Assembly: GCA_021432635.1 (NCBI GenBank)
Contig: MU270032.1
Location: 930,001 to 994,000 of the forward strand
Direction: 5' to 3'
DNA length: 64,000 bases
DNA from: Thozetella sp. PMI_491
Lineage: Eukaryota > Ascomycota > Sordariomycetes > Chaetosphaeriales > Chaetosphaeriaceae
Shown here: positions 16,113-38,262 of the stretch, piece by piece
Layout of the letters: the number at the start of each line of letters is the position of its first letter
Position numbering within the stretch: position 1 is the first letter of the stretch
Notes under the pieces: model-generated
What the model saw: only the letters and a program-made list of their open reading frames with translations
Told to the model about the DNA's origin: nothing
Databases searched by the model: none
Program-made: the position numbers and the translations under genes

Positions 16113-17777
16113 CTAAATGACCTTCTCTTCTCTAAGTTTCTGTATCTCGTCTATGCTCAAACCGATGTTACGTAATACCTCCTCAGAATGCTCTCCCAAT
16201 GCCGGTGGTTTGGAGCGGATCGAAGGTTTTGTCTCACTGAACTTGACAGGAATTCCTAGAGGGGATCAGTCTAGTCTCTAAGCCTTGCGGTCGGGATTTA
16301 TGCTTACCTAACATCTTGATCTGACCTGAAGCTGTGGCGTCGTGGTCCAGGGTTTCGATCATGTTACGCGCGATGGTCTGAGGGTTCCAAAACTTGCTTC
16401 ATGGTATTCACTGGGCCATATGGCATCCCGCTGCCCTCAAATACTGCGAGCCACTCCTTGGTACGCTTGGTCCTAAATTAGCGGTTCAGAACGGTCTTCA
16501 GTTCCTTTCGGTTCTTCACTCGCGCATCGTTATCCACGAAGCGAGTGTCCCTTGCAAGTTATTTGGCACCGAGTCTGTCGCATAAAACTCCGAATTGTCG
16601 GTTGTTGGTGGCTCCTAGGACCAGAACTGAGTCAGCGGTCTGAAATGAGTCGTACGGCACGATGCTCGGGTGTTCCGTCCCCCATCTTTGGGCTTCTAAT
16701 CCGATATTAAGCCAAGACATGGCTACATTTGCCAACAGCGAGATTTTTGTTTCAAAGAGAGATGCATCAATCTTCTGGCCATTCCCTGTTGCTTGGCGGT
16801 TTACGAGGGCAGCAAGAATGGCCCCATGAAGATATAGACCAGTGCACATGTCCGTCAGTCCGACGCCCGGCTTTGTAGGCCGGCCATCCCGGTCTCCGGT
16901 GATGTGTAGAAGACCGCCTTCCGCTGCCGCGATGACATCGTATCCGGCTCGTTTCGCGTAAGGCCCACCGGCGCCATATCCTGCTCTGGGTCAGCACACA
17001 ATCCACAAAGCCACCTCGAGTGTAATTCGCACCTGAAACGCTTGCGTGTATCAAGCCTGGATTCACTTGACGGAGCTTCTTATACCCAATGCCCAACTCG
17101 TCCGTCTTTCCGGGTACGAAGTTATTCACACTTGGGCAGAATTAGCAGCTTTTTCCGACTCGTGACAAGTGGCTACATACACAACATCTGCATCTTTCGC
17201 CAGCTCGAAGAGAATCTGGCGCGCTTTCTCGTGCTTTAAGTTCAGTGTAATGGATTTTTTGTTGCGATTGATGGTGGAGAAATAGGCTGAAAGGCCTGTT
17301 CTACCCTTCCACATCTGGTTTTCGCCTTCTGTGCGCCATGATCCCGTGTCGTCCTGGAGAGTGAAGCAAATAACGTGAGCGTCTGATGAGCTGGAGAATC
17401 TTGGCGAACTTACACCACCGACAGGATGCTCAACCTTGATAACATCGGCGCCGTAATCTGCGAGGATTTGCGTGCAAAACGGGCCCTGTATGCGGGATGT
17501 GAGCCGAAGCTTCCCAATGATTGATGCTCACACCTACAGCTAGCACTCTTGTCAAATCGAGAATTTTAATGCCTGTCAAAGGCCCTGTAGTGCTTGTATG
17601 ACTTGGCGCGATTGTGCTCTTGGTCTGACGCTGGCCACCTGCGATGCGAAGGTTTCCCGAGTGGGAGAGACTCCTACGGGGGGACCATCTCGAATGGGCA
17701 AACTTCCAGTAGCTTAGTGAAGCATTGAGCTCGTGGCCGACGTGAGAGGCAACAGCCAGGGATCCTCGGGCGGCCAT
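16113..17777 (-). pseudogene. Class III (CaiB/BaiF) CoA-transferase, interrupted
   Basis: Minus-strand gene with about five introns. Recognisable blocks in order are [108 protein letters not shown] and GMPYGPVN, then a C-terminus ending at 16113. Family members move CoA between acids such as succinate and glutarate, formate and oxalate, or carnitine esters. This one resembles the succinate:glutarate type with a mitochondrial-looking N-terminus (ATG at 17777). Two in-frame TAA codons (near 16560 and 16473) and a one-base frame change near 16385 disrupt the C-terminal third. It is divergent from the acyl-CoA dehydrogenase. Confidence 0.75.
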
Positions 17778-18316
17778 TATAGCTGATGATAGCGTCAAAT
17801 CCAAATCACAGTGGGTATAAGAACCAACTTCGTCATAATCACGTTTCTATTTAACCGACGACTCGCCCCCAGCTATCTCCTAATCATACCCGTGATCGAA
17901 TGTAAGGGGGCCGTACCATAGCATCGACGCTAATTGTCACGCGGCATATGAGAGCCGCTGACCCGCAGCGGAAGCTACCCTCCGGGCGATGTGTGAGATC
18001 CACTTCGGCGGTAGAAACCCGAGGAGGTCAGCGCCGGGGAGTATGGACCGAACCAATGGTCGGGGGTAAATGTGGGGTTAGAAAAAGTCTGGGGTTCCTC
18101 CACCAGTCTTGAATTGAGGAATGAGCAGTCCAGAAGCTACGGCGCGCTCTGTGGGATTCAGTTTTACCCTTATAGCGTCCTATTGGCATAGGTTAAAGGA
18201 TGGCATTTTGCAGTTCTTGACGAGCTCTTCCAATTGACCTCAGCGAACACTGAATGCTGCTAAAATATTGACCCGCTCGTTGCTGAAGATGACACCAAAT
18301 GCATTGCAAGCAGTGA
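17778..18316. promoter_or_regulatory. Shared upstream region of CoA-transferase and acyl-CoA dehydrogenase
   Basis: About 540 bp between divergently transcribed remnants, so both promoters once lay here. I cannot point to specific operator sites. Confidence 0.35.
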
Positions 18317-19651
18317 GTGAAAGGTCGTACCCGCTCCCTGCCGCACACTGACGTTAGCCAGGCAGGAAGGATTGTCTCTCATCTCGGTACTCGATGCGGC
18401 CGCTTCTTGCCCCTAACCCAAGCGACTTACAGCCGGGTGAGATGCCGTTTCGCGCACAGCAGAGCTACTGAATACCTTCAACTCAATGACCCGGATTTGA
18501 CGGATTCACAGAGGACCGTCAGGGAGGCTATTGCGAAGATATGCGCCGACTTTCCTGACGAGTACTGGGCAAAACAGGAAGAGTTGAAAAAGTTCCCCAC
18601 ACAGCTGTATGATGCCCTCGCACGAGACGGCTGGCTTGGGATTTGCATGCCTTCCAAGTACGGTGGGTCAGAGCTTGGGATTGCTGAGGCCGCTATTATG
18701 ATGCAGACCATATCAGAATAGGGAGGCGGAATGTCGGCAGCATCTTCTGTGCACATGAACATTTTTGGACTGGAGCCTGTGGTCAAGTTCGGTTCGGAAG
18801 AGCAAAGGGAACAGTTCCTGGTGCCATTGATTGCCGGTAAAGAGAGGGCGTGCTTTGGGGTCACGGAACCGAACACCGGTCTCGATACGCTTCGGTTGCA
18901 GACCCGTGCGAAGCGCGACGGCGACCACTATGTAGTGACGGGCTCCAAGATCTGGATATCGACGGCCCAGAATGCCCAAAAAATCCTCCTTCTCGCTAGA
19001 ACCACTTCTCTCGACCAAGTATCCAAGCCATCGCAGGGACTCTCGCTATTCTACACGGATCTGGATCCTAAAGTCGTCGAGATCACGGAAATCCCTAAAA
19101 TGGGCAGAGCTGCGGTAGATACTAACATGCTGTTCTTCAGCGACTGGCGTATCCCGGCATCTCACCGTATTGGTCCCGAGAATGAAGGCTTCAAAATGAT
19201 TCTCCACGGGATGAATGCCGAGAGGATCCTCATCGGAGCAGAGGCGCTAGGTCTGGGTTACGCCGCGCTCCGAAGGGCAGCCATTTATGCTGACGAGCGT
19301 CACGTTTTCGGCCGGCCTATCGGACAGAACCAGGCGATCCAGCACCCTTTGGCAGACAGCTGGATGCAACTGGAAGCGGCGCGGCTGGTCATTTATCAGG
19401 CTGCGAAGATGTACGACCAAGGCTATCAGCCTGGCGAATATGCCAACGCCGGGAAATTCCTGGCTGCCGAGGCTGCTTTCAAAGCTTGTGAGAGAGCCGT
19501 CATGTGCCATGGTGGAATGGGTTATGCGAAAGAATACCACGTTGAGAGATACCTCAGGGAGGTGTTCATTCCACGCATTGCCCCTATCAGTCGCGAAATG
19601 ATTTGCAATTATATTGGAGAGCGAATTCTCGGGCTGCCCAAATCATATTAG
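18317..19651 (+). pseudogene. Acyl-CoA dehydrogenase with one in-frame stop
   Basis: FAD-dependent acyl-CoA dehydrogenase of about 440 residues. Blocks include GWLGICMPSKYGGSELGIAEA, the FAD-contact segment CFGVTEPNTGLDT, GSKIWISTAQNAQ, MNAERILIGAEALGLGYAAL, FGRPIGQNQAIQHPLAD and MCHGGMGYAKEYHVERYLRE. A single TAG at 18719-18721 interrupts the helix usually reading SESG..M; the frame continues perfectly on both sides. No ATG is seen in frame at the N-terminus: RFAHSRATEYLQLNDPDL reads like the start of a mature mitochondrial protein, and the first exon (perhaps from the ATG at 18289) is unresolved. It pairs head to head with the CoA-transferase, which suggests activation and then oxidation of one acid. 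Confidence 0.75.
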
Positions 19652-20129: not shown

Positions 20130-23100
20130 TTAAGCACCCCCAAAAACCAAAAGGCTTCGAATCGTAACTCTGCCAAAGCCACGCCGGCGCAACAGTTCTC
20201 GGCCACGGTGAAAAGGAAACTCGGCCACGACCATGACGCTAATATACTCTGAAGCGACACCAGCTTCATTCAAAAGACACAGCACGGCCCAAAGCGTCTT
20301 CCCGGTGGCCAGCACATCATCCACCACCACCACTGACGCGCCTTTGTAGACTATATCACGGTTCATCTCAATCCTCTTCTCTCGTAAATCGTCCGATGCC
20401 GAAGACGAAATATGCGACGGAAATCCAACGACGGAAACGGTGGGTGGGGGAAGCTTGCCGGCTTCACGGATCAGTGCCAAGGGTATGCTGACTCGCGACG
20501 CTAACGCCGAAGCAAAGACAAAGCCCCCGGCCTCGCAACACGCCACCGCAGCAACTTTGGCCCAGTCACCGTTGAAGTGGGATTGCAGCAAAGACGTGCA
20601 TAGTTTTAGACCACCTGGCTGCTGGGAGATGTTGAGCACATGGCGGAATTCAATGCCCAGACGTGGGAAGTCTGATACCGGGCGTACCATATTGGCCAGT
20701 CGCCGTAGGTCCTCGTGTAGGAAGGGGAGAAGGTAGTGTTTGGCGAACCTTTTTGCAGCCTCGTTTCCGGTCACGTCATTATCGAAGATGATGCTGGAGC
20801 GGTCTTCACCCTTGTCGTCACCATCTTTATCATCGCCTAAGACTCCTCCACGCACCTGGCGAGTCTCTTTGCTAGCTTGGACACGGATTTCGAGTAGTCT
20901 ACTATCTGGGACTAAATGCGACAAGGTTGCGACGGGCGCCTTGTCTCTCATCCCCGTGATTAGCAGCACGTCCACATCCGCGGCGTCATACACCACGTTC
21001 AGGAAATGATCCTCTGGCAGCCCAGGTCGTTGATGCACCTGGCCCCGGAAAAAGTCTGTCAATGCCAGCCGATGCTCTTCCTTGTACGCACGGTCATGAA
21101 GCAGGCGGGTTAGTTCGGCCCCCGTAGCCGCCGCGTATTCTCGTTTGATCGCATCGCTAATGCTGACCACGCGTGCCCGGAATTTTTGTTCTGTGCATGT
21201 CATGAACATGGAGGCCCAAATTTCGGCGCAGTAGTCTTTTCCTGCGCAGCTTTGGCCAGTGACTAGAATAATAAGCCTCTGTTCCATCGGCAGCTTTGGA
21301 AGTGGGCAGGCATAAGCCAGCACATTGCGTGGATCCAGGCTGCGTTTGAGGCGGGCCAGACGTGACCGGTTTGGTCCAAATGCCTTGGCGGCCAGCTCGG
21401 CATCTCTTGGGTCTGGCCCGAGATCCGCGCCGTAAGCTCCGGTGCTTACGGGCAATAGGTTCCTGGCGACATCGTAAACCCACTGCACAGCAGCTCGAGC
21501 GGCTGCGGATCCATCTTGATCACGGGGCCAGACACCAGTGATCACGCAAGCAAAGGCCCAGTCTCGGCAGCCAAAAGCAGTGGCATCGACGACCACGTCA
21601 CCGACCGCTCCGCCACCGTGCAGCAGATGAAGATAGCAGAGCGATGAGGGACGATTCTCAACAGCCGCTACCAACATGTCGGCCACATATACTGCTCCGA
21701 TGCGGCTCAAGAATACACATCGCTTGAACGAAGAAGTCTTGCCGCCACTGTGCCCGCCGTGCATTCCGGACATGTACATCTCGGTCTCGAACAAACCGAT
21801 AGCATCCACGGCCTTGAAGCTGTCTTCTGGACCCAAGAACGCGGCTGCAGCCGACGGCGTCATTGTAGGTCTGTCAAAGGCAAGCCTAGTGGCGGAACAT
21901 TCGATTATGGTAACGCCAAGATGCAGCCGGCCGGTATCCCAGTAGAGGTACGCATCTGCAGAACAATCCCGGGGGAGCTTGCTGGCAACAAGGTTATCGA
22001 AATCGCTGAGCTTGAGCTGTGCCTCTAGGTTACCGCTCAGCGGGGCAACCCAGTTTCGAGTCAAGTAGGTCGGAGCCGCACAAGCCCTGAAGGTAACACT
22101 CATCACAACGCCGAAGTTCGTCCCTGCGCCTTTCAATGCCCACAACAGATCGGTTTCATTTTCCGGGCGCACGGCACCAGTCGGCCGATATTGGCTTGGC
22201 ACATGGCCGATGCAGAGGACGCGGCTGGATTCGACACTGACCATCACGGCGCCGACGATAGCGTCACACGCGAGCCCATGCAGTCTGGACAGGTGTCCGA
22301 TACCGCCTTGCAGCCATAGCCCCGCGCCTACGCTGGGACGGGCTCCCAGGGGCACTGTCAGGCCAAATGCCATGGCCTTACGGACGATATCCTCTGTCCT
22401 ACAGCCAGCCTCAGCGACGACCAAGGCGGAGCTAAACCCTTCATCTTCTCCGGCCGCGAGAATGTGAACTTGATCAAATGCGGCCATGTCGACCGAGACG
22501 ACGTTTGGCCGCAGACAGTGGCCGCTGTGACCGCCGCCGACGACGATCAGGCTAACGTCGTGCTTCAGAGACCAGCGAACGCATTGTTGGACATGCCAGA
22601 GCTCTGTCGGTCTAACAACTAAGGCGGGTCTGTGGCGGCAAGCCTCTCGATTTTTGACTGTCTTAACCCCCTTCACCAATGGGACCTGCGTCATCAGTTC
22701 TGTCAAGGCAGTCGCATGTGGAGTGAAAGCTACCATGACATTCGGTGAGCTGAAGGAGAGACGATCTGGGTGGGTTTTCTCACGACGGCCCATGGCGCGG
22801 CACGCCTTCCGCCATTCGACTCGGACTGCTTTGTCCGCGTCCATGTCCTGGGTGACAAAACCTGCGACGAAGGGGGCAAAACAGTCCAAGGTATCGTCAT
22901 CATCTGGCAGGGAAACGACCCCGGAAGGAAAAGAAGTCGTCTGGTGGCACACCAAACCGTCGAGTTGCAGTGCTCCGTCGCGGTGGAAAACCACCACCAT
23001 GCCGCCGTCTGCTTGCTCAATGAGCATTCCCAGCGCCTGTTCGATGAACTTGTGTTGGGGCTTCATGCCATACATGCTGTGGCAGAACAGGATAACGTCG

Positions 23101-23576
23101 AATTTTTTGTCGCCATCGCTCGTATCGGTGTCGGATTCGCTTCTCTTGTTGCCACCTAGAACAAATGGGGTTCGATGGATCTCGGGAGGTCTTTCTAGAC
23201 AGGGTAGCGGGGACTCCATCTCCAAGTTAGAGCGAAGCCACTCTTCCAGTGTGGAAGCGAACATCCTGTTAGGCTCAAATGCGACGTATCTGCCGACCTT
23301 CCGTCTCAGATGGGTGGGCAGATATCCGAGAACAGTCTTCGGGCCGGGTCCGATCTCTAGCACTGAGATCCAGAGGCGCGATTTGAAGAGAGGGACTAGC
23401 AGACGAGAGAGCTGAGGGATAATGAAAGATTGGTATGTCGACCATCCTGGGCCCCGCACCAAGATGTCGAAGCCTGCGCTATACTGTGCGTCAGACAATG
23501 GCTGCTTCGGGGACGACGGCGCTGTTGTTGCGGCGCTTTCCCTGAGTGCCTCCTTTAAGATATCAAGAGTGGTCAT
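20130..23576 (-). CDS. Four-domain fusion: methyltransferase / FAD oxidase / P-loop kinase / phosphoribosyltransferase
   Basis: One uninterrupted, intron-free reading frame of 1148 residues with a good ATG. Residues 1-295 look like a class I methyltransferase, with LEIGPGPKT at 73-81 and a VAFEPN acidic turn. Residues 305-760 form a PCMH/BBE-type FAD oxidase: GGGHSG at 347-352, where the His is the usual flavin-attachment residue, VGAGLWLQGGIG, and the C-terminal FGPNRSRLARLKRSLDPRNVL signature. Residues 766-955 resemble animal phosphomevalonate kinase (P-loop GQSCAGKDY at 774-782; LLHDRAYKEEHR). Residues 960-1148 resemble adenine phosphoribosyltransferase, with the PRPP loop VVVVDDVLATGKT at 1082-1094. 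All four active-site signatures look intact. The reaction is unknown; I infer assembly or tailoring of a nucleotide-like product. Confidence 0.85.
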   Translation of the reverse strand: MTTLDILKEALRESAATTAPSSPKQPLSDAQYSAGFDILVRGPGWSTYQSFIIPQLSRLLVPLFKSRLWISVLEIGPGPKTVLGYLPTHLRRKVGRYVAFEPNRMFASTLEEWLRSNLEMESPLPCLERPPEIHRTPFVLGGNKRSESDTDTSDGDKKFDVILFCHSMYGMKPQHKFIEQALGMLIEQADGGMVVVFHRDGALQLDGLVCHQTTSFPSGVVSLPDDDDTLDCFAPFVAGFVTQDMDADKAVRVEWRKACRAMGRREKTHPDRLSFSSPNVMVAFTPHATALTELMTQVPLVKGVKTVKNREACRHRPALVVRPTELWHVQQCVRWSLKHDVSLIVVGGGHSGHCLRPNVVSVDMAAFDQVHILAAGEDEGFSSALVVAEAGCRTEDIVRKAMAFGLTVPLGARPSVGAGLWLQGGIGHLSRLHGLACDAIVGAVMVSVESSRVLCIGHVPSQYRPTGAVRPENETDLLWALKGAGTNFGVVMSVTFRACAAPTYLTRNWVAPLSGNLEAQLKLSDFDNLVASKLPRDCSADAYLYWDTGRLHLGVTIIECSATRLAFDRPTMTPSAAAAFLGPEDSFKAVDAIGLFETEMYMSGMHGGHSGGKTSSFKRCVFLSRIGAVYVADMLVAAVENRPSSLCYLHLLHGGGAVGDVVVDATAFGCRDWAFACVITGVWPRDQDGSAAARAAVQWVYDVARNLLPVSTGAYGADLGPDPRDAELAAKAFGPNRSRLARLKRSLDPRNVLAYACPLPKLPMEQRLIILVTGQSCAGKDYCAEIWASMFMTCTEQKFRARVVSISDAIKREYAAATGAELTRLLHDRAYKEEHRLALTDFFRGQVHQRPGLPEDHFLNVVYDAADVDVLLITGMRDKAPVATLSHLVPDSRLLEIRVQASKETRQVRGGVLGDDKDGDDKGEDRSSIIFDNDVTGNEAAKRFAKHYLLPFLHEDLRRLANMVRPVSDFPRLGIEFRHVLNISQQPGGLKLCTSLLQSHFNGDWAKVAAVACCEAGGFVFASALASRVSIPLALIREAGKLPPPTVSVVGFPSHISSSASDDLREKRIEMNRDIVYKGASVVVVDDVLATGKTLWAVLCLLNEAGVASEYISVMVVAEFPFHRGRELLRRRGFGRVTIRSLLVFGGA

Positions 23577-23921: not shown

Positions 23922-24702
23922 ATGCTCAAGAATCAATCGTTCATGTTTCAGGAAGAGGCCACCGACAGCGCCGAGGCTATTTCCTCTTCAAGCGAGGCCG
24001 CAGCTCTACCAAAACTGGCTTGTGACCTTTACATCCCCGCTTCAGATTACCCACCGGAGAAGATAGGAAATGCTGCCACGTTAGAACCAAGTGTGAAAAT
24101 TGACAAGATCTCAAGCGCCATGAAGCTCGTGTTGGAGGCCCTGGGAGAGAATCCAAGCCGGGAAGGCCTACAGAAGTCCCCAGAGCGATTTGCAAAGGCC
24201 ATGATATTCTTCACTAAAGGTTATGAGGTAGACCCGACCGTCATTCTCAAAGATGCCATCTTTCATGAGCACCACCAGGGCTTGGTTCTCGTCAAGGACA
24301 TTGAGTTCTCTAGCTTATGTGAACACCACCTCATTCCGTTCATTGGCAAGGTACAAGGTACACATGTCCAGACGAAAGGCTCAATTTCTTACCCTAGGCT
24401 AGATCCATATTGGGTACATCCCCAATGGCAAAATTGTCGGCTTATCCAAGACAGCGCGAGTAGCTGAAGCCTTTGCTCGGCGGCTTCAAGTACAAGAGCG
24501 CCTCACAACCCAGGTGGCCCACTGCCTGTTTGACGTCTTGCAGCCTCGAGGAGTAGCAGTGGTAGTGGAGGCCACGCACCAGTGCATGGCGATGCGAGGC
24601 GTTCAGAAGATAGGGGCATCAACAACAACTACCTGCTTCCTGGGGGAGTTTGATACCGACAGAGATTTCAAAGAAGAATTCTGGAGGAGTCTTCAGAGAT
24701 AA
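23922..24702 (+). CDS. GTP cyclohydrolase I
   Basis: Exons 23922-24350 and 24403-24702 around a 52-bp intron give 242 residues. The enzyme opens GTP to 7,8-dihydroneopterin triphosphate, the entry step to folate, tetrahydrobiopterin and 7-deazapurines. Zinc ligands are visible: LCEHHL (Cys about 133, His about 136) and the late Cys in [10 protein letters not shown] (about 221). The [15 protein letters not shown] and QERLT blocks are intact. The N-terminal 55 residues are Ser/Ala-rich, as in other eukaryotic forms. Because it shares a promoter with the four-domain fusion gene, it is probably a pathway-specific copy rather than the housekeeping folate enzyme; that is inference. Confidence 0.92.
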
Positions 24703-29291: not shown

Positions 29292-30759
29292 GGATGCCGA
29301 GCGAGACGCAAATGACGAGAGCATATCCTCAGGCCCTGAGCTTAGCGCCCATGATGTGAAGCGGGCTTTGCCAAGTACGACGTTGATAGGGAAGCATTCG
29401 ACTCGAATCACAATTCCGTACGAAAGTTATATCGGCGCAATCCTCGGCGGACAGTTCCAGATTGGTCGTCTGATTCGGCATGAAGTTTTAGAGGGTGGTT
29501 TCGAGATTTCTGTCTATGAAGTCGTGCCACTCCTGTTTACCGCTGTGAACAGGCTTGAGGCAAAAGCTATGTCGGTGGTTTCGGACCCTGGCCTTCGCCG
29601 AATGTGCCAGCGGAAGATCGCACATCTTAAAAAGATCCTCGTAGCCACCATCGACCAAGCTGGAAAGAAGTGGCTCGTTTACAATGCTAGAGACGATTAT
29701 GAGCTGCCCACGAAGCGCATGAAGCATACTCGCATTATGAACAGCTACACTGCCGGACTGCCACAGCTGCAGCAAACCCTTGAACGTTTACCTAGCGCCA
29801 TCATAGCCGAAGCACCCCTTCGGCGAGTGCGTCGCCGGACGCCCAAGAAGTTCAACAATGAGAGGGAGACGACTGAAACGATCGAAATATCAACTAGGTC
29901 TGATAATAAAACTCTTATTTTATCAGACCTGCCCGTACCAGTAAATCATCGTTCATGGAGTGATGAGCTGAAAAGCCTCCAAAACACTGCAACAAGACTT
30001 CGGGCTGTTGATTGGGACCCAAATAATATGAAAAGACGCAAATATGGGCTTGCTTTCAAGAACGATAGGGAATTGCTCAGGTATATCCGGTTCGTGGTCA
30101 TCAATTTCAGGGATCACGAAGAGGTCGATCCTCAAACGACTTATCTCCCATCCGGCTGGTCCAGGTCGGGTCTCTCCATGCTTCAACGCTGGCGTGACTC
30201 TGGTCATGACAAATGGTGCCATGCTCGCAACTGTGAGATTCAGACTGCGGCGCGCAGGTTAGAGGACAATCTTAAAATGCTCTCGAGACCTGTTACAATC
30301 AATGAGAGTGTTTCGATAGCGAATGGTATCAGCATCTTACAGCTAAGAAGGTTATGTGAAAAGGCCGAAGTTGCCTTCAGCCGTCCGTTAGTGAGACTGG
30401 CGCTTGGTTATGAGCTGCATGATCTCCGGGAACTGGCTCGCTATGGGGACTACCAAGACAGTGAGCAGCACGAGTTTGATTATGCCCTTCGAAAGGGATT
30501 GAGCACCAGGCAGAAGAAAGTTCGGGTGGGTAGGGGACCTAAGTTCATCAAGCTCCCACAAAGGTTCATGGCCGATGCTCTCTCAGCTGGGTACTACATT
30601 GGTCAATGGGAAGCAATTTTAGAGACTCTGGGGCGCGGAGAACTGGATGCGTGGATTTCTGATCTTTCTGTCATTACTATCCCCGATGACTTATCGGTCC
30701 CGGAAAGGATGGAGAGGGCTTATGGGCTCGACTTCGGTATTTTTTGGCCGTCGAGGTAG
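29292..30759 (+). CDS. Unrecognised protein, large 3' exon
   Basis: An open exon of about 489 codons reached through a good intron (29226-29291, GTAAGT..AAAG). It is rich in basic and aromatic residues, with no signal peptide or membrane helix. I recognise no family. The 5' part is unclear: an ATG at 28710 opens a frame (MASQGTLSLASKFLATG) that meets two TGA codons near 28950-28961. The same frame then goes on with coding-like text (EELETISNETGSCINEGES) to a donor-like GTAAGA at 29111. This may be an incompletely understood splice pattern or a damaged gene. No function is proposed. Confidence 0.45.
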
Positions 30760-32279: not shown

Positions 32280-34575
32280 CTAATAAATAAGAATATCCCC
32301 GCCAAATGGCTTGATTGGAATAGATTGGAGAAAAATCTCTACATTCACCCAGGCTTGCTCGAGAGGCAGACGCTTAGGCGGAAAATCGAGAGTGCCAATC
32401 CTCTCCCACACTAGGCTACCTGATATCCCAGTGACTTGACGGAGAATGACGAAGAAAATATGCCCACTGTCAAAATTATCCCCGTATATGAGGACACTAA
32501 TGAGATCTCCCAATATATGCCCATTCACAAGATCGTCTTTCGACACGATAACAGATAGTCTGATATCCGAACCGAATTCCAGAGTCTCCCACATGCTGCC
32601 ATCAGAGTTAGCCAGCTCTATCTTCTTAAAATTCAGCACGAAGGGTTCTCTAAGGCGGAGCCGATACTGGCGATTCTCTGGTAAGCTTACGAAGGTTTTG
32701 AGACCAGACAGCCGCAAAACCATCGTGCTATGTGTGTCCTCAATGATCATGTCCGGAGAATACATCAGGGAGTCGGCTTCCTGGTCGGTTGTATCTAGCC
32801 ATGCGGACCATTGCTGCACGAATATCGAGTGAGTGTTGGCGGACCTCCAACTAATTGCACCGTTCCAACCAGCACAGGTCCATGAAGGTAGATGTCTTCG
32901 TCTAGCCGCGCTCACTCCATGATCCTCCTGAGCCATTTCTTTGCCGTTTGTGTGACTCCAAAACCAGACCGAAAGCAAATTGGTGCAGAAGGGATAAGCA
33001 CCGCTCTCCATATCCAATTTCCCAGATAGGAATTCCTAATATCGTCCCGATCCCATTCGTCGAACCGTATCGCTTTGCGATCCCTTCGAATGCACGAAGC
33101 GAATCCGCTTCGTAGCTCAGCGTCCTACGAGTGTATGCGCATATGTGTGTCTCGAGCTGTGCAATGCGAGAGAAGATGTCGGACAACTCTTCGTCATCAA
33201 AGCCCCAAATAGTTTCCGGTGTGCTGAAGGATGCCTCTGACGAACCGCGAAAAATGCTGGATCGCACGAAATTCTCCATCTTCTGGCCAGACTCGTCATG
33301 CAAGATAGCAAGTGGTAGATCGAGACTCTCCTGCACGGCCATGCCACGGCATTCAAAGTAAACTTGCCAATCTGTGAAGACGAGTCTGCGCGCCGATAAT
33401 ACGCCTTCCTGGTACGTCCAACCTCTACTGGACCATACAGACTCCCCAATAACCAGCCGAGGATCAGGGAGGCTCGAGACAAGTTGTATATCATGGTTTA
33501 AAACCACATGAGGTTGCGACCTAGAAGGGCGCCAAGTAGATCCTGCACCAGGCAGGCCGTGGCGAGCATCGGACCCGGCCGCTGCGACGATCGTGAGATC
33601 CGCGCAACGGTAAATCCATTCCATGTTTGCTATGAGATAGTGTTTTTCCTGGGCGTTAGTTTGGTCGATGCAGAGACGGTCAACCCAGAGATACTTTAAG
33701 CCGATACCCAACGTGACTGCCACAGCATCCAGGACCACTTGTGGCCATGGTTCCGGTTCCCCTGTGCCCCAAACATAGCTGAGAGCGACGTAGGGATCCT
33801 CGAAAGGTCTTATTTCCAGGCAAGGTGGGCTTGCCATACAATTGATAACCCGAAAGTTCTGCAGGTGGCCAGCATTACCCTTTTGTGCCATGCATCGGTC
33901 CTTATGATGTGTCTTGCAAAAGGATAGCCAGTGAAGAACGATCGACATGTCCACCAGGTCTTTTAGTAACCTTGGGCGGAGGATCGAATTCGAGGCTGCA
34001 TTTATCTCCCTGGGAATGATGGGGTGAATGGTCCCGCTGAGTCGGCAACCCTCGACGAGCCACCATGGATCATACTCATCCGGGCCCATGGATTCGACAT
34101 CAGGGACAACAGCCAGGAAGAAGTAGCCTGATATCACGCTCCATGCTTGCCGATTTCTCATGCGACCCCGGTTCAGGAAGTGCAGAAAGCTGCCGCTCAG
34201 TGCTATCAATCTGTGGTTCTCGTACTGATCAGGTTCAATTCTCATGCGCCGAAAGAAAGAACAGAGCGGACATTCCGAGTCCCGCGATAATCGGTTGGAA
34301 AAGCCGCAAACTCGGAATGACCTCGGAGGGTAATCCTCTTTATAGGCTTCAAAAAAGGCGTACGCTGCTGCAAGGCTCGTCACCAGTTCCAAGTCAGAAC
34401 ATTTTTCGCAGGACTTCGCATCCATAGATGCTTCGTGGGCGCCGTTCATCGGGATCATCAATGAATGTGGGAGCTTTTTAAGACATCGATGGCGGAAGAA
34501 AATTTTGCTTAAGTTAAGAGTTTCAGGCCGACAATGTCCGCAATCAAGTGTGGTTACACAGCATTCGGTGGCCAT
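32280..34575 (-). pseudogene. HET-domain (heterokaryon incompatibility) protein, one frameshift
   Basis: Starts at the ATG at 34575 and reads about 550 residues. The HET domain begins near residue 262 with PYVALSYVWG, then LKYLWVDRLCIDQ (about 293-305) and VWSSRGWTYQEGVLSARRLVF. Such proteins trigger cell death when incompatible hyphae fuse. In the interval 32902-33017 the family text moves to another frame: LLSVWFWSH then ARRRHLPSWTCAGWNG. It continues to a stop at 32280, giving the normal C-terminal region with a WNG..W segment. No intron fits, so one base has been lost or gained. Alternatively the shorter product is real and truncated. Confidence 0.7.
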
Positions 34576-36020
34576 CTGATTCAGCTAAGCTGCCTTATGG
34601 AGAACGCCACCAGTTATCCGAGCCTTTTGTAACCGTTCGGGACTGGATGTCGGCACCCGTTATGCTATGTGCTGTATATACCTGAGGCTACCTCTTTTAT
34701 TGCGCCCTAACTTTGCCTGCTCCGCTATGGGATTGTGTTTCGCGGTCTCTATGTAACAACGCACGGTGCTTCGGCGGTCTCGGCAAGGCTGGGTAGACTC
34801 CAGTCTTGCCGACCAGAGCCTAGCCTCTGGCTGGCACCCAGGGAAAGCGAGCTGTCACCCCTAGATTCTACGGGTCTGTCGAACTTGATCATCATCTATC
34901 CGCGTATAGCATCCAAATTCGTCGTAAAACGCGCTCCGCTATCGACGTATTCTTGACGCTCTCTGAGTTGTCATCAAACGGGGGCTCGTGATGCAAGCTG
35001 CCAAGCCGGCAATCACCATGCCGTATCCTTTTGAACTACGTAGGGGCGTATTCGATATGGTCAATGGCGCCACGAACCTAGCATATCACTCTCATTGTTA
35101 TCATTTGGAAACGTGCACTCTGAGAGAAGTGTAAACTCCATGGTCCCACTTGCGTGCAAGTTCCGTGGACAGTCATATAAGATTCTTCTTCCAAGGCACC
35201 CTGAGCAAGGCCGCAAGTGGCGGCTACAAGGGGCAATGAAGCCATGCTTGCAGGGCGAGCGGCTAAGGTTAGTTTTCAACTAGGCGAGGTGAGTGGAGAC
35301 GCGAAGTTAGAGTTAGGCGCGATTTGGTTGTTGCCGGTGTAACTATGTCAGCGAAGAGCTTTCCTCTAGCCAATTTACCTAGTTCATGCGTGGTTCCCAT
35401 AATGACCGTGGCCGGCCCAATCCCCAATGATTGCTTCGACGTCCACTCGGAAAATAAATTAAATACCGTAGCTAGAGCGTCGGAGACGCGCTTAGCTCGT
35501 CTAGCCTTTAGCCTTTAGCTATTCTCTCGGGTCGCGCTAGAGTGGCCAAATTAAGCTAATAAAGATCCCCCCGCTACTAAGCGTTTGGCGATTAGATCGT
35601 TGCTTCTCGGGGCCATTGACAGAGCCGCACTATGCTCGCACTATTATTGTTCGAACCGTATTAAACCAGAGCCACAAAGAAGTCCATTGAATGTTCGGGT
35701 CAAAAGAGCCGATAAGCCGTAAACTTAATTTAAAGAATGCCTTGGGACCCACGTGGCGGGTGTCGGGGTCTAGCTAATGATGCTTTCACTGACGACGGCC
35801 GTTGCGCCACAGTCCTACGGGATCTCGAAGCTTGCGGATTTAATCATATTTCCACAAGACCTCTGCACTACAGGTGGCTATTTCCTGCAGGGTCCGACAC
35901 TAATCAACTGAGTGGTACAACCGGTGAAAAACTCGACAATAGCTTCTATAGCGTGGCCCAGCGTTACGCCCGCTAACTCCAAGATCTCTAGAGCTGAACT
36001 CCTGAGACGGTCATCCAGAA
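34576..36020. other. Intergenic, no gene seen
   Basis: About 1.4 kb upstream of the HET gene and the secreted protein. Open frames are short and unsupported. Confidence 0.4.
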
Positions 36021-36023
36021 ACA

Positions 36024-36231
36024 TATAAAGGGAAGGCCCCTTCCGTCACTCATGTTAATAGATAGTACCTCCAGCTTTAAGTCATTCTTTCTTTTATATG
36101 TTCGGAGAAGGGTGGGTCAGCCAAGTCCCATGTTCGTTCACTAAATCACACTCCTTCTCTAAACCACATTCCTTCTCTAAACCACACTCATTCTCTAAAC
36201 CACTCTCGTTTCATAAACTGCTACCGATAAA
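36024..36231 (+). promoter_or_regulatory. TATA box and repeat-bearing leader of the GLEYA gene
   Basis: A TATAAA at 36024-36029 lies about 200 bp before the ATG. The leader then holds four tandem 18-bp units at 36142-36213, each beginning TAAAYCAC and the first three ending TTCTC. The last copy is degenerate. The repeats are pyrimidine-rich on this strand and stop 18 bp before the ATG. Confidence 0.6.
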
Positions 36232-38262
36232 ATGAGGACGGTGGTCGCTTTTTCCGCTGTCCTATATGGCCTCACAATAGCGACACCCCTTGAGCGTCGC
36301 CAGGGAATCAATGTCGACGCTTATGAGGCTGCCGCCAGCCTGGTCACTTCTAACCAGCCTCCCGTAGGCGACAGTGCCCCGCAGACAACTGTTGGCTACG
36401 ACCCCACGACTATTATTGAAAAAGTAGTTGCACAAGTAACTTCGGCTCCCTCGGACGATGACATCAACACTGCTGCTGTCATCGCAAAGCGAGCGGCCAC
36501 AGTTTGCACTACTCGCACCTTCAACGGCCCTAGAGTAACAGCACCGGCTGATACTCCCGAAGCCTTTGTTGCTTACCAGCCATTCACAGATGCCGCCGTG
36601 TCTGCTGCTAAGGACGAAAATATTCCGGAAGGTTACAACGTTGTCACAGGCTTTGTCAACCTCCCTGCAACTGCCAATGCTCCCAACTATCTAAGCTACG
36701 TCTCTTCGGTGCTGACAGGTTACAACCCGGGTCAGTGTGCGGCGATCTGTGATGGTATGGCCGGCTGTAATGCCTTTGTTATCTACAACGAACGTGTGCC
36801 ACTCGTCGTCAGCACCTTGACCCAGGTTCCCGACTCAAATGTCTGCCCTGCCTCCAGCACATCGGCCTCAGCCACCCTCATCAAGTGTGCTTTCTACGGA
36901 GTTCCCCCCACTGCAGCTCAGGCGACCAACTCGTACCAATTCCAAGGAAAGTTCAAGGTTGTTTGGACAGGTGCCAATGCTTATTCTAAGAAGTCCGTCC
37001 CCGCGGTCCAAGGGTTTCGCGGCCCCGTCTCGTTTGGCGACTACACGATCAATGTGCCAACCCCGGCTTTGAACTACGGATTCCTTCGATCAGAGACCTT
37101 TGGTGCTAACGTCCCCTTCGACCCGTCGCTCTGCGCTGCCTCATGCCTGGCTCAGACGCCCGCTAACGCCCAGAGCGGTAACTTTAACGGCTCCGCCTGC
37201 ATGTTCTTCGACGCCCATATCGTCTACAAGAATGGACTGAACGGAATTTTCACTTGCAACTACTACAGTATCGAATATGACAGCAGTAATGCTACGTACT
37301 CCGGACAGACTATTTCCAAGGACAAGTACACGGTCGGCTATAGCTACGGTTACTACCTCGACATGGACCTCCCGTCTACTTGCTCCTCGATCTTTGTTTC
37401 CACATTTACTCCCTCCGCGTAAGTTAAGGCGTGGGACCTTCTCGATATATATAGCTAACAAATGTGGTGTAGCACGGCTACTGTCACTGTCGCACCTGTG
37501 TTCCAGCGAAATATTCCTGCCGCCGTCTCGGCCTCGGCCTTCTTTTCCGCTTGTTCTGCTATCGGTGTCACCTCAACCGTGGTTACCACTGCGACCGTAA
37601 CAACTACCGCGACCGCCACCCCAACTTGCACCCGGGGCGTCAGTTTCACAGTCTTCCATTTGGACACCGCTAACCCTGCTGTCTCGATTATCTGGCCCGA
37701 TGCCGTGAACAATCCTTGGACCAACTGGGATGTTACGGGATTCCTCAAGGGCGCCAAGGTCATGGGCTCTGGAGTTACCCCGGTTGTTGGAAGCGTGAAC
37801 AAAATTCAGAATGAGGTTCCGCTGGATCTCTATGGAATTACCAACCCTCAACACTACGGCGGTCAATACTTCGCCGCGGAACACACCTTCTATATCCGCC
37901 CTACGCAAGTAGGGTACTACACGTTTTCTTCATACATCGCTGACGATCTTCTTGCCGTTTGGATCGGAAATAACGCGCTCTCGGGATGGACGGTGAACAA
38001 CGCTAACTTGGTCGCTACGTTGTTTTCGAGTGGATACTCGAACTTCTATGTCGACGACAAGATGGTGAACACGTTCATTCCAGTTCGCATCATGTGGGCC
38101 AACGGACCCAACAACTATGAACTTCGCTACTTCCAGATTTACGACCCAAGCTCCAACGTCATTCTAAGTCTAAATCCTGTCAATAGCCCCCAGATTATCA
38201 GCAGCTGCTCTGGCATAAGCCCGGAAGTTCCTGTGTTGGCTGCATCGGTACCGGGACAGTAA
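36232..38262 (+). CDS. Secreted GLEYA/PA14-type cell-surface protein
   Basis: Exons 36232-37418 and 37473-38262 (54-bp intron) give 658 residues. A signal peptide (MRTVVAFSAVLYGLTIA) is followed by a dibasic ERR site and an Ala/Thr-rich stretch. Two similar cysteine-containing modules follow (NPGQCAAICDGMAGCNAF and DPSLCAASCLAQTP..CMFFDA), resembling apple/PAN-like repeats. A Thr/Val-rich linker leads to a C-terminal GLEYA-like domain (WPDAVNNPWTNWDV, YTFSSYIADDLLAVWIG, MWANGPNNYELR). GLEYA domains are PA14-like lectins of fungal adhesins. It is expected outside the cell or in the wall. No GPI signal is seen. Confidence 0.82.

Follow-up and report, generated by a model that had tools for sequence, protein, structure and literature searches.

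Does a 64,000-nucleotide stretch of the genome of the ascomycete Thozetella sp. PMI_491 (Sordariomycetes; contig MU270032.1, positions 930,001 to 994,000; hereafter the window) encode a single protein that unites four enzymes, and what might such a protein make? A sequence-only reading of the window had pointed to an uninterrupted frame of 1148 codons and named no strand for it. Translation of positions 20130..23576 places this frame on the minus strand, where it runs from ATG to TAA in one exon and encodes 1148 amino acids plus the stop, without internal stops; plus-strand frame 1 is broken by many stops. Stop-free runs peaked at 262 codons when the window was mononucleotide-shuffled 20 times, so a chance origin of the 1148-codon frame is excluded. 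All four motifs quoted in that reading are present in the translated protein: LEIGPGPKT at residues 73-81, GGGHSG at 347-352, GQSCAGKDY at 774-782 and VVVVDDVLATGKT at 1082-1094.

Profile searches and predicted folds place four enzyme-like domains in a row in this one gene: first a methyltransferase, then a flavin oxidase, next a kinase and lastly a phosphoribosyltransferase. Both the types and the order agree with those proposed beforehand. Pfam recovered three of the domains above its curated cut-offs (33.8 bits for P-mevalo_kinase, 26.3 for Pribosyltran, 26.4 for FAD_binding_4, 27 for Methyltransf_23 and 20.6 for BBE), and the methyltransferase was recognized by fold comparison, its own Pfam match falling below the cut-off. 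The failure of profile searches to recover a domain, named beforehand as one of two grounds for refutation, did not occur. The types can be named more narrowly as a histamine-N-methyltransferase-like fold, a BBE-like oxidase, a kinase resembling phosphomevalonate or deoxynucleoside monophosphate (dNMP) kinases, and a transferase of the adenine phosphoribosyltransferase (APRT) type.

A full-length search returned 1101 significant proteins. The best 120 of these comprise the window's own protein (P0001) and 119 relatives, which are 69-84% identical to it over 96-100% of the query; lengths across the 120 range from 1115 to 1220 amino acids. This coverage supports a single, unsplit gene. The domain order, sought in other fungi, was found in at least 119 relatives with near-full coverage; judged by these matches, the fusion recurs in many filamentous ascomycetes, and the window's genome is not its sole holder. 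We take the 35 named relatives to belong to the Lecanoro-, Leotio-, Sordario-, Eurotio-, Dothideo- and Geoglossomycetes. That several genes were joined by chance or by sequencing error is practically out of the question: some database models hold only the kinase and phosphoribosyltransferase and some lack the oxidase in between, but the full-length relatives, and a frame about four times longer than the longest in the shuffled windows, refute it.

With the kinase-transferase half as query, 271 proteins were retrieved, the best 120 of which include Fusarium, Trichoderma, Metarhizium, Claviceps and Venturia. Further Pezizomycotina matches to this half are often short or partial models, with identity down to 53%, and some models with only the kinase and phosphoribosyltransferase begin at an internal methionine of the fusion, so that their upstream half may be either absent or just not annotated. 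Residue conservation is counted below over the 120 full-length rows, P0001 included, with the divergent relatives of this half left out. In P0235, P0202 and P0177 (Apiospora, Diplocarpon and Claviceps) the kinase and transferase are kept, and what is missing is the oxidase or portions of both oxidase and methyltransferase; these models may be either genuine short forms or splice-model artefacts. P0221, from a Sphingomonadales bacterium metagenome-assembled genome, shares 70% identity with 73% of the kinase-transferase half and, we infer, most likely reflects fungal contamination of the bacterial assembly. A prokaryotic source of the fusion was considered and rejected, a pattern scan of genome contigs having hit just one locus, that of an ordinary bacterial APRT (32%). 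Plasmid matches occurred in 41 records, none spanning 80% of the kinase-phosphoribosyltransferase piece and with the 15 rows shown all in the transferase half. A scan of viral contigs for the fusion found nothing; the genome and viral scans used two short peptide patterns each, which makes prokaryotic or viral absence a weak result.

We compared the histories of the four parts. Pairwise distances correlate between every pair of domains over the 120 rows (r 0.69-0.77), and after removal of P0001 and P0002 r was 0.62-0.73, whereas 499 permutations of the reduced set never exceeded 0.26. The fusion therefore evolves largely as one unit, and this correlated evolution joins the single frame, the family matches, the predicted folds and the conserved motifs for S-adenosylmethionine (SAM), flavin, ATP and phosphoribosyl pyrophosphate (PRPP) as direct observation. 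Among the 36 named rows, mean identity was 80% between classes and 82% within them. For four shared classes, between-class identity was 81% for the fusion vs 72% for the core columns of housekeeping GTP cyclohydrolase I (19 rows), a gap that is partly selection because the fusion rows are the best 120 of 1101, which raises their figure; the 72% control was matched by class and computed without the Aspergillus steynii protein, which sits on a long separate branch (74% with it and without class matching). The high between-class identity would follow from strong constraint, from recent spread or from the two together.

The classes are also mixed in the fusion tree (36 named rows and P0002), which requires 11 changes where 5 would suffice and shuffled labels average 20.9. 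The approximately unbiased (AU) test rejects a single Leotiomycetes clade (p 2.6e-8) and a single Lecanoromycetes clade (p 1.4e-4); a grouping of two Hyaloscypha species is likewise rejected (p 2.2e-5). The control tree of GTP cyclohydrolase I is one change above its minimum (5 vs 4); it draws on other species and few columns, and its branches are long. Lateral transfer and ancient paralogues both fit the class mixing.

What does each domain contribute? All coordinates of the fusion's parts refer to the minus strand. The SAM-dependent methyltransferase occupies residues 1-300 (22677..23576), and its closest fold is histamine N-methyltransferase. We assign it because the predicted fold supports it, the Pfam match (Methyltransf_23, 20.5 bits) being under the cut-off. 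L73, E74, G76 and G78 of motif I (LEIGPGPKT, 23334-23360) and the acidic residue E101 are each kept in 120/120 rows.

The flavin adenine dinucleotide (FAD)-linked oxidase, of the BBE-like group, follows at residues 301-762 (21291..22676), with FAD_binding_4 at residues 317-447 (51.7 bits, above the cut-off) and a weak BBE match at 729-755 (19.7 bits, short of it). H350 (22527-22529), the putative histidine for covalent linkage of FAD, is kept in 119/120 rows. A second, bicovalent link through a cysteine is typical of BBE-like VAO/PCMH oxidases, though not universal; the fusion carries Arg 413 (120/120) at the probable place of this Cys in bicovalent enzymes, as set by motif and not by alignment. 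Tyr 715 is invariant, and the residue two positions on is Ala in 119/120 rows, not the Asn of the C-terminal Tyr/Phe-x-Asn motif of BBE-like oxidases given in one paper (PMC11375781). Residue 416, which aligns with Thr139 of EncM, is Val in 116/120 rows, on which ground we rejected an EncM-type N5-oxide oxygenase. Ordinary hydride-abstracting oxidation appears more likely than N5-oxide chemistry, because EncM T139V shows oxidase activity, according to a review (PMC7662398), and the fusion has Val there.

The P-loop kinase, of the phosphomevalonate-kinase/dNMP-kinase type, spans residues 766-953 (20718..21281) and matches P-mevalo_kinase (PF04275) at 79.8 bits, above the cut-off. Its P-loop (GQSCAGKDY, 21231-21257) keeps GKD, and the pattern G-x-S-x-x-GKD, in 120/120 rows. 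The phage dNMP kinase family phrog_139 also matches (E 9e-8), only over residues 5-95 of a 196-residue piece. Kinase folds were not among the fold-search rows shown, which APRT, other phosphoribosyltransferase chains and EncM fill, the kinase not having been searched alone; this does not speak against a relation.

The APRT-type domain (residues 954-1148, 20133..20717) combines an APRT fold with a Pribosyltran match of 74.6 bits, above the cut-off; NCBIfam APRT profiles score below their curated cut-offs (96.4 vs 125 and 84.5 vs 185.85). Its PRPP motif VVVVDDVLATGKT (20295-20333) retains two Asp, with D1086 in 119, D1087 in 120, T1091 in 118, G1092 in 120 and T1094 in 120 of the 120 rows, and R1037, K1041, F977 and E1070 are invariant. 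A link to defence systems was considered and set aside; the one PADLOC match, to ShosT (E 9e-4), is marginal and covers residues 1069-1109 of this domain.

We tentatively propose, at somewhat less than even confidence, a multifunctional fungal enzyme by which a small nitrogenous metabolite is made, or remodelled, as a nucleotide. The methyltransferase and the His-linked flavin oxidase would act on an amine or N-heterocycle by methylation and oxidation, tailoring the base or amine before or after transfer; the APRT-type domain would join the product to PRPP; and the kinase would phosphorylate the monophosphate so formed once more. Our inference covers the activity of all four domains, the identity of substrate and product, and the sequence of steps. 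The route from base to monophosphate to diphosphate would parallel that of a fused HGPRT/adenylate kinase (PMC7326950). Several steps on a base or nucleotide, as the sequence-only reading supposed, are plausible from the domain content, and the recurrence of the fusion in ascomycetes points to a shared nucleotide-type chemistry, still undescribed. A bolder form of the proposal, in which a single Pezizomycotina gene, passed between fungal classes, encodes a self-contained four-step 'assembly line' from a small N-heterocycle to an unknown modified nucleoside diphosphate, is speculative and somewhat improbable; if true, one gene would amount to a complete pathway for a new fungal nucleotide metabolite.

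Several observations weigh against the proposed nucleotide-forming enzyme. No listed relative has a known substrate, the full-length model is poor in the flavin part (block means 28-52 over residues 341-500), the kinase scores nearer phosphomevalonate kinase than dNMP kinase, and the transferase departs from the aligned APRTs at two positions, the Arg of the pyrophosphate (PPi) loop and the Glu of the flexible loop. The former, within ARGF or SRGF in three aligned APRTs, is Gly 1017 in 120/120 rows; the latter, within LEYG, is Glu in 2/120 and mostly N, D or S, the loop alignment being uncertain. Because both are replaced, purine transfer activity is not assured. The sites are thus complete in part: three domains keep their cofactor motifs, and the transferase keeps its PRPP-binding motif but has altered loops. 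Since the motif is kept while the loops have changed, the domain may accept a substrate other than adenine or play a regulatory role. In the regulatory case it would be a PRPP or nucleotide sensor for the other domains, with its pocket kept and its catalytic loops lost as in the Bacillus PurR repressor, which we consider unlikely.

Base salvage is the role of APRT, and the same domain evidence would also fit a salvage or detoxification system: a modified purine or other N-heterocycle would be trimmed by the methyltransferase and oxidase, and the APRT-like part together with the kinase would rescue the base in nucleotide form. The altered adenine-type loops, and a methyltransferase fused to a salvage enzyme for no obvious purpose, make this rather unlikely. 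The kinase might instead have a different phosphorylated substrate, an acid or a sugar (one similar to phosphomevalonate, or ribose bisphosphate, which would give PRPP), and so feed the transferase domain, not act after it. Besides the PF04275 score, the residues aligned to what we take to be K48, K69, R73, R84, R110, R138 and R141 of human phosphomevalonate kinase (PMK) are kept in 114-120/120 rows. Against this, the GKRK stretch before the P-loop Lys is not kept (first Lys only, in 5/120 rows), the second Arg of the SD-x-RR pair of the two aligned animal-type PMKs is D or E in 120/120, and the TIGR01223 equivalog profile scores 36.3 bits, far under its cut-off of 188.15; an upstream kinase is decidedly doubtful.

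Could the neighbouring genes supply a pathway? An accessory GTP cyclohydrolase I lies divergently beside the fusion (23922..24702, plus strand; exons 23922-24350 and 24403-24702, with a 52-base intron whose splice sites were placed by hand after the protein family's sequence), and the two start codons are 345 bases apart. A database entry is 100% identical to the spliced model over 81%. The enzyme belongs to an accessory clade of 8 rows (support 100/99) with long branches, apart from the housekeeping enzymes; the 7 other rows are a second Thozetella copy, Akanthomyces, two Beauveria, Cordyceps, Xylogone and Phialemonium. The short distance and the accessory clade would suit a shared pterin or deazapurine pathway. 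However, none of the 35 other named fusion holders appears among the 8 accessory rows, and a coarse by-eye comparison of contigs (best 120 rows each) gave no sign of a conserved fusion-cyclohydrolase neighbourhood among the listed relatives of both, no listed cyclohydrolase other than the window's own being matched to a contig of listed fusion relatives. We therefore rejected a pterin pathway with this enzyme, now a very remote prospect; the adjoining GTP cyclohydrolase I is probably not part of the fusion system.

On the fusion's other side, 16767-19651 holds a CoA-transferase family III fragment (minus strand) beside an acyl-CoA dehydrogenase (plus strand). Elsewhere in the window are an open reading frame (ORF) with a heterokaryon incompatibility (HET) domain (32902-34575, minus strand, E 7e-27), an ORF with a GLEYA domain (37462-38262) preceded by one with a weak, below-cut-off PAN match (36232-37422), and a 467-codon ORF without a Pfam match at E 0.01 (29356-30759). 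The stretch 36001-38000 stands out by an unusually low GC skew (-0.165).

The four domains each belong to a known kind, but for their fusion the literature searched offers no described member. The open-licence full texts that the search covered yielded no description of it, in keeping with the earlier statement that no described enzyme with this order was known to the reader; subscription journals could hold one. Source databases name the listed relatives hypothetical or after one of the fusion's domains, and a link to fungal NLR effector domains was set aside, the paper found on them mentioning 'phosphoribosyl' only in its reference list. The fusion hints at which activities work together, so that a single expression experiment might uncover an entire fungal pathway.

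The nearest known systems resemble the fusion part by part. Histamine N-methyltransferase, the best fold match (238 residues aligned), shares the overall fold with SAM motif I, whereas no PDB sequence matches the fusion's methyltransferase up to E 10. With 6-hydroxy-D-nicotine oxidase and EncM (VAO/PCMH, BBE-like) the oxidase shares the FAD domain, the 8-alpha-linkage His and the C-terminal element, although it has Y-x-A where BBE has Tyr/Phe-x-Asn. Animal-type phosphomevalonate kinase (PF04275, TIGR01223) agrees in the GKD of the P-loop and at most aligned basic positions with the fusion kinase, which lacks GKRK, has RD or RE for RR and stands in another context. APRT (EC 2.4.2.7) shares the fold over the whole domain, the PRPP motif, the hood Phe and the GKLP stretch, but the fusion differs in the PPi-loop Arg-to-Gly change, the replaced flexible loop, FRH for FRD, sub-cut-off scores and being fused. 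The HGPRT/adenylate kinase of Zobellia galactanivorans likewise unites phosphoribosyltransferase and nucleotide kinase in a single polypeptide (PMC7326950); it is bacterial, draws on other transferase and kinase families, and carries neither a methyltransferase nor an oxidase.
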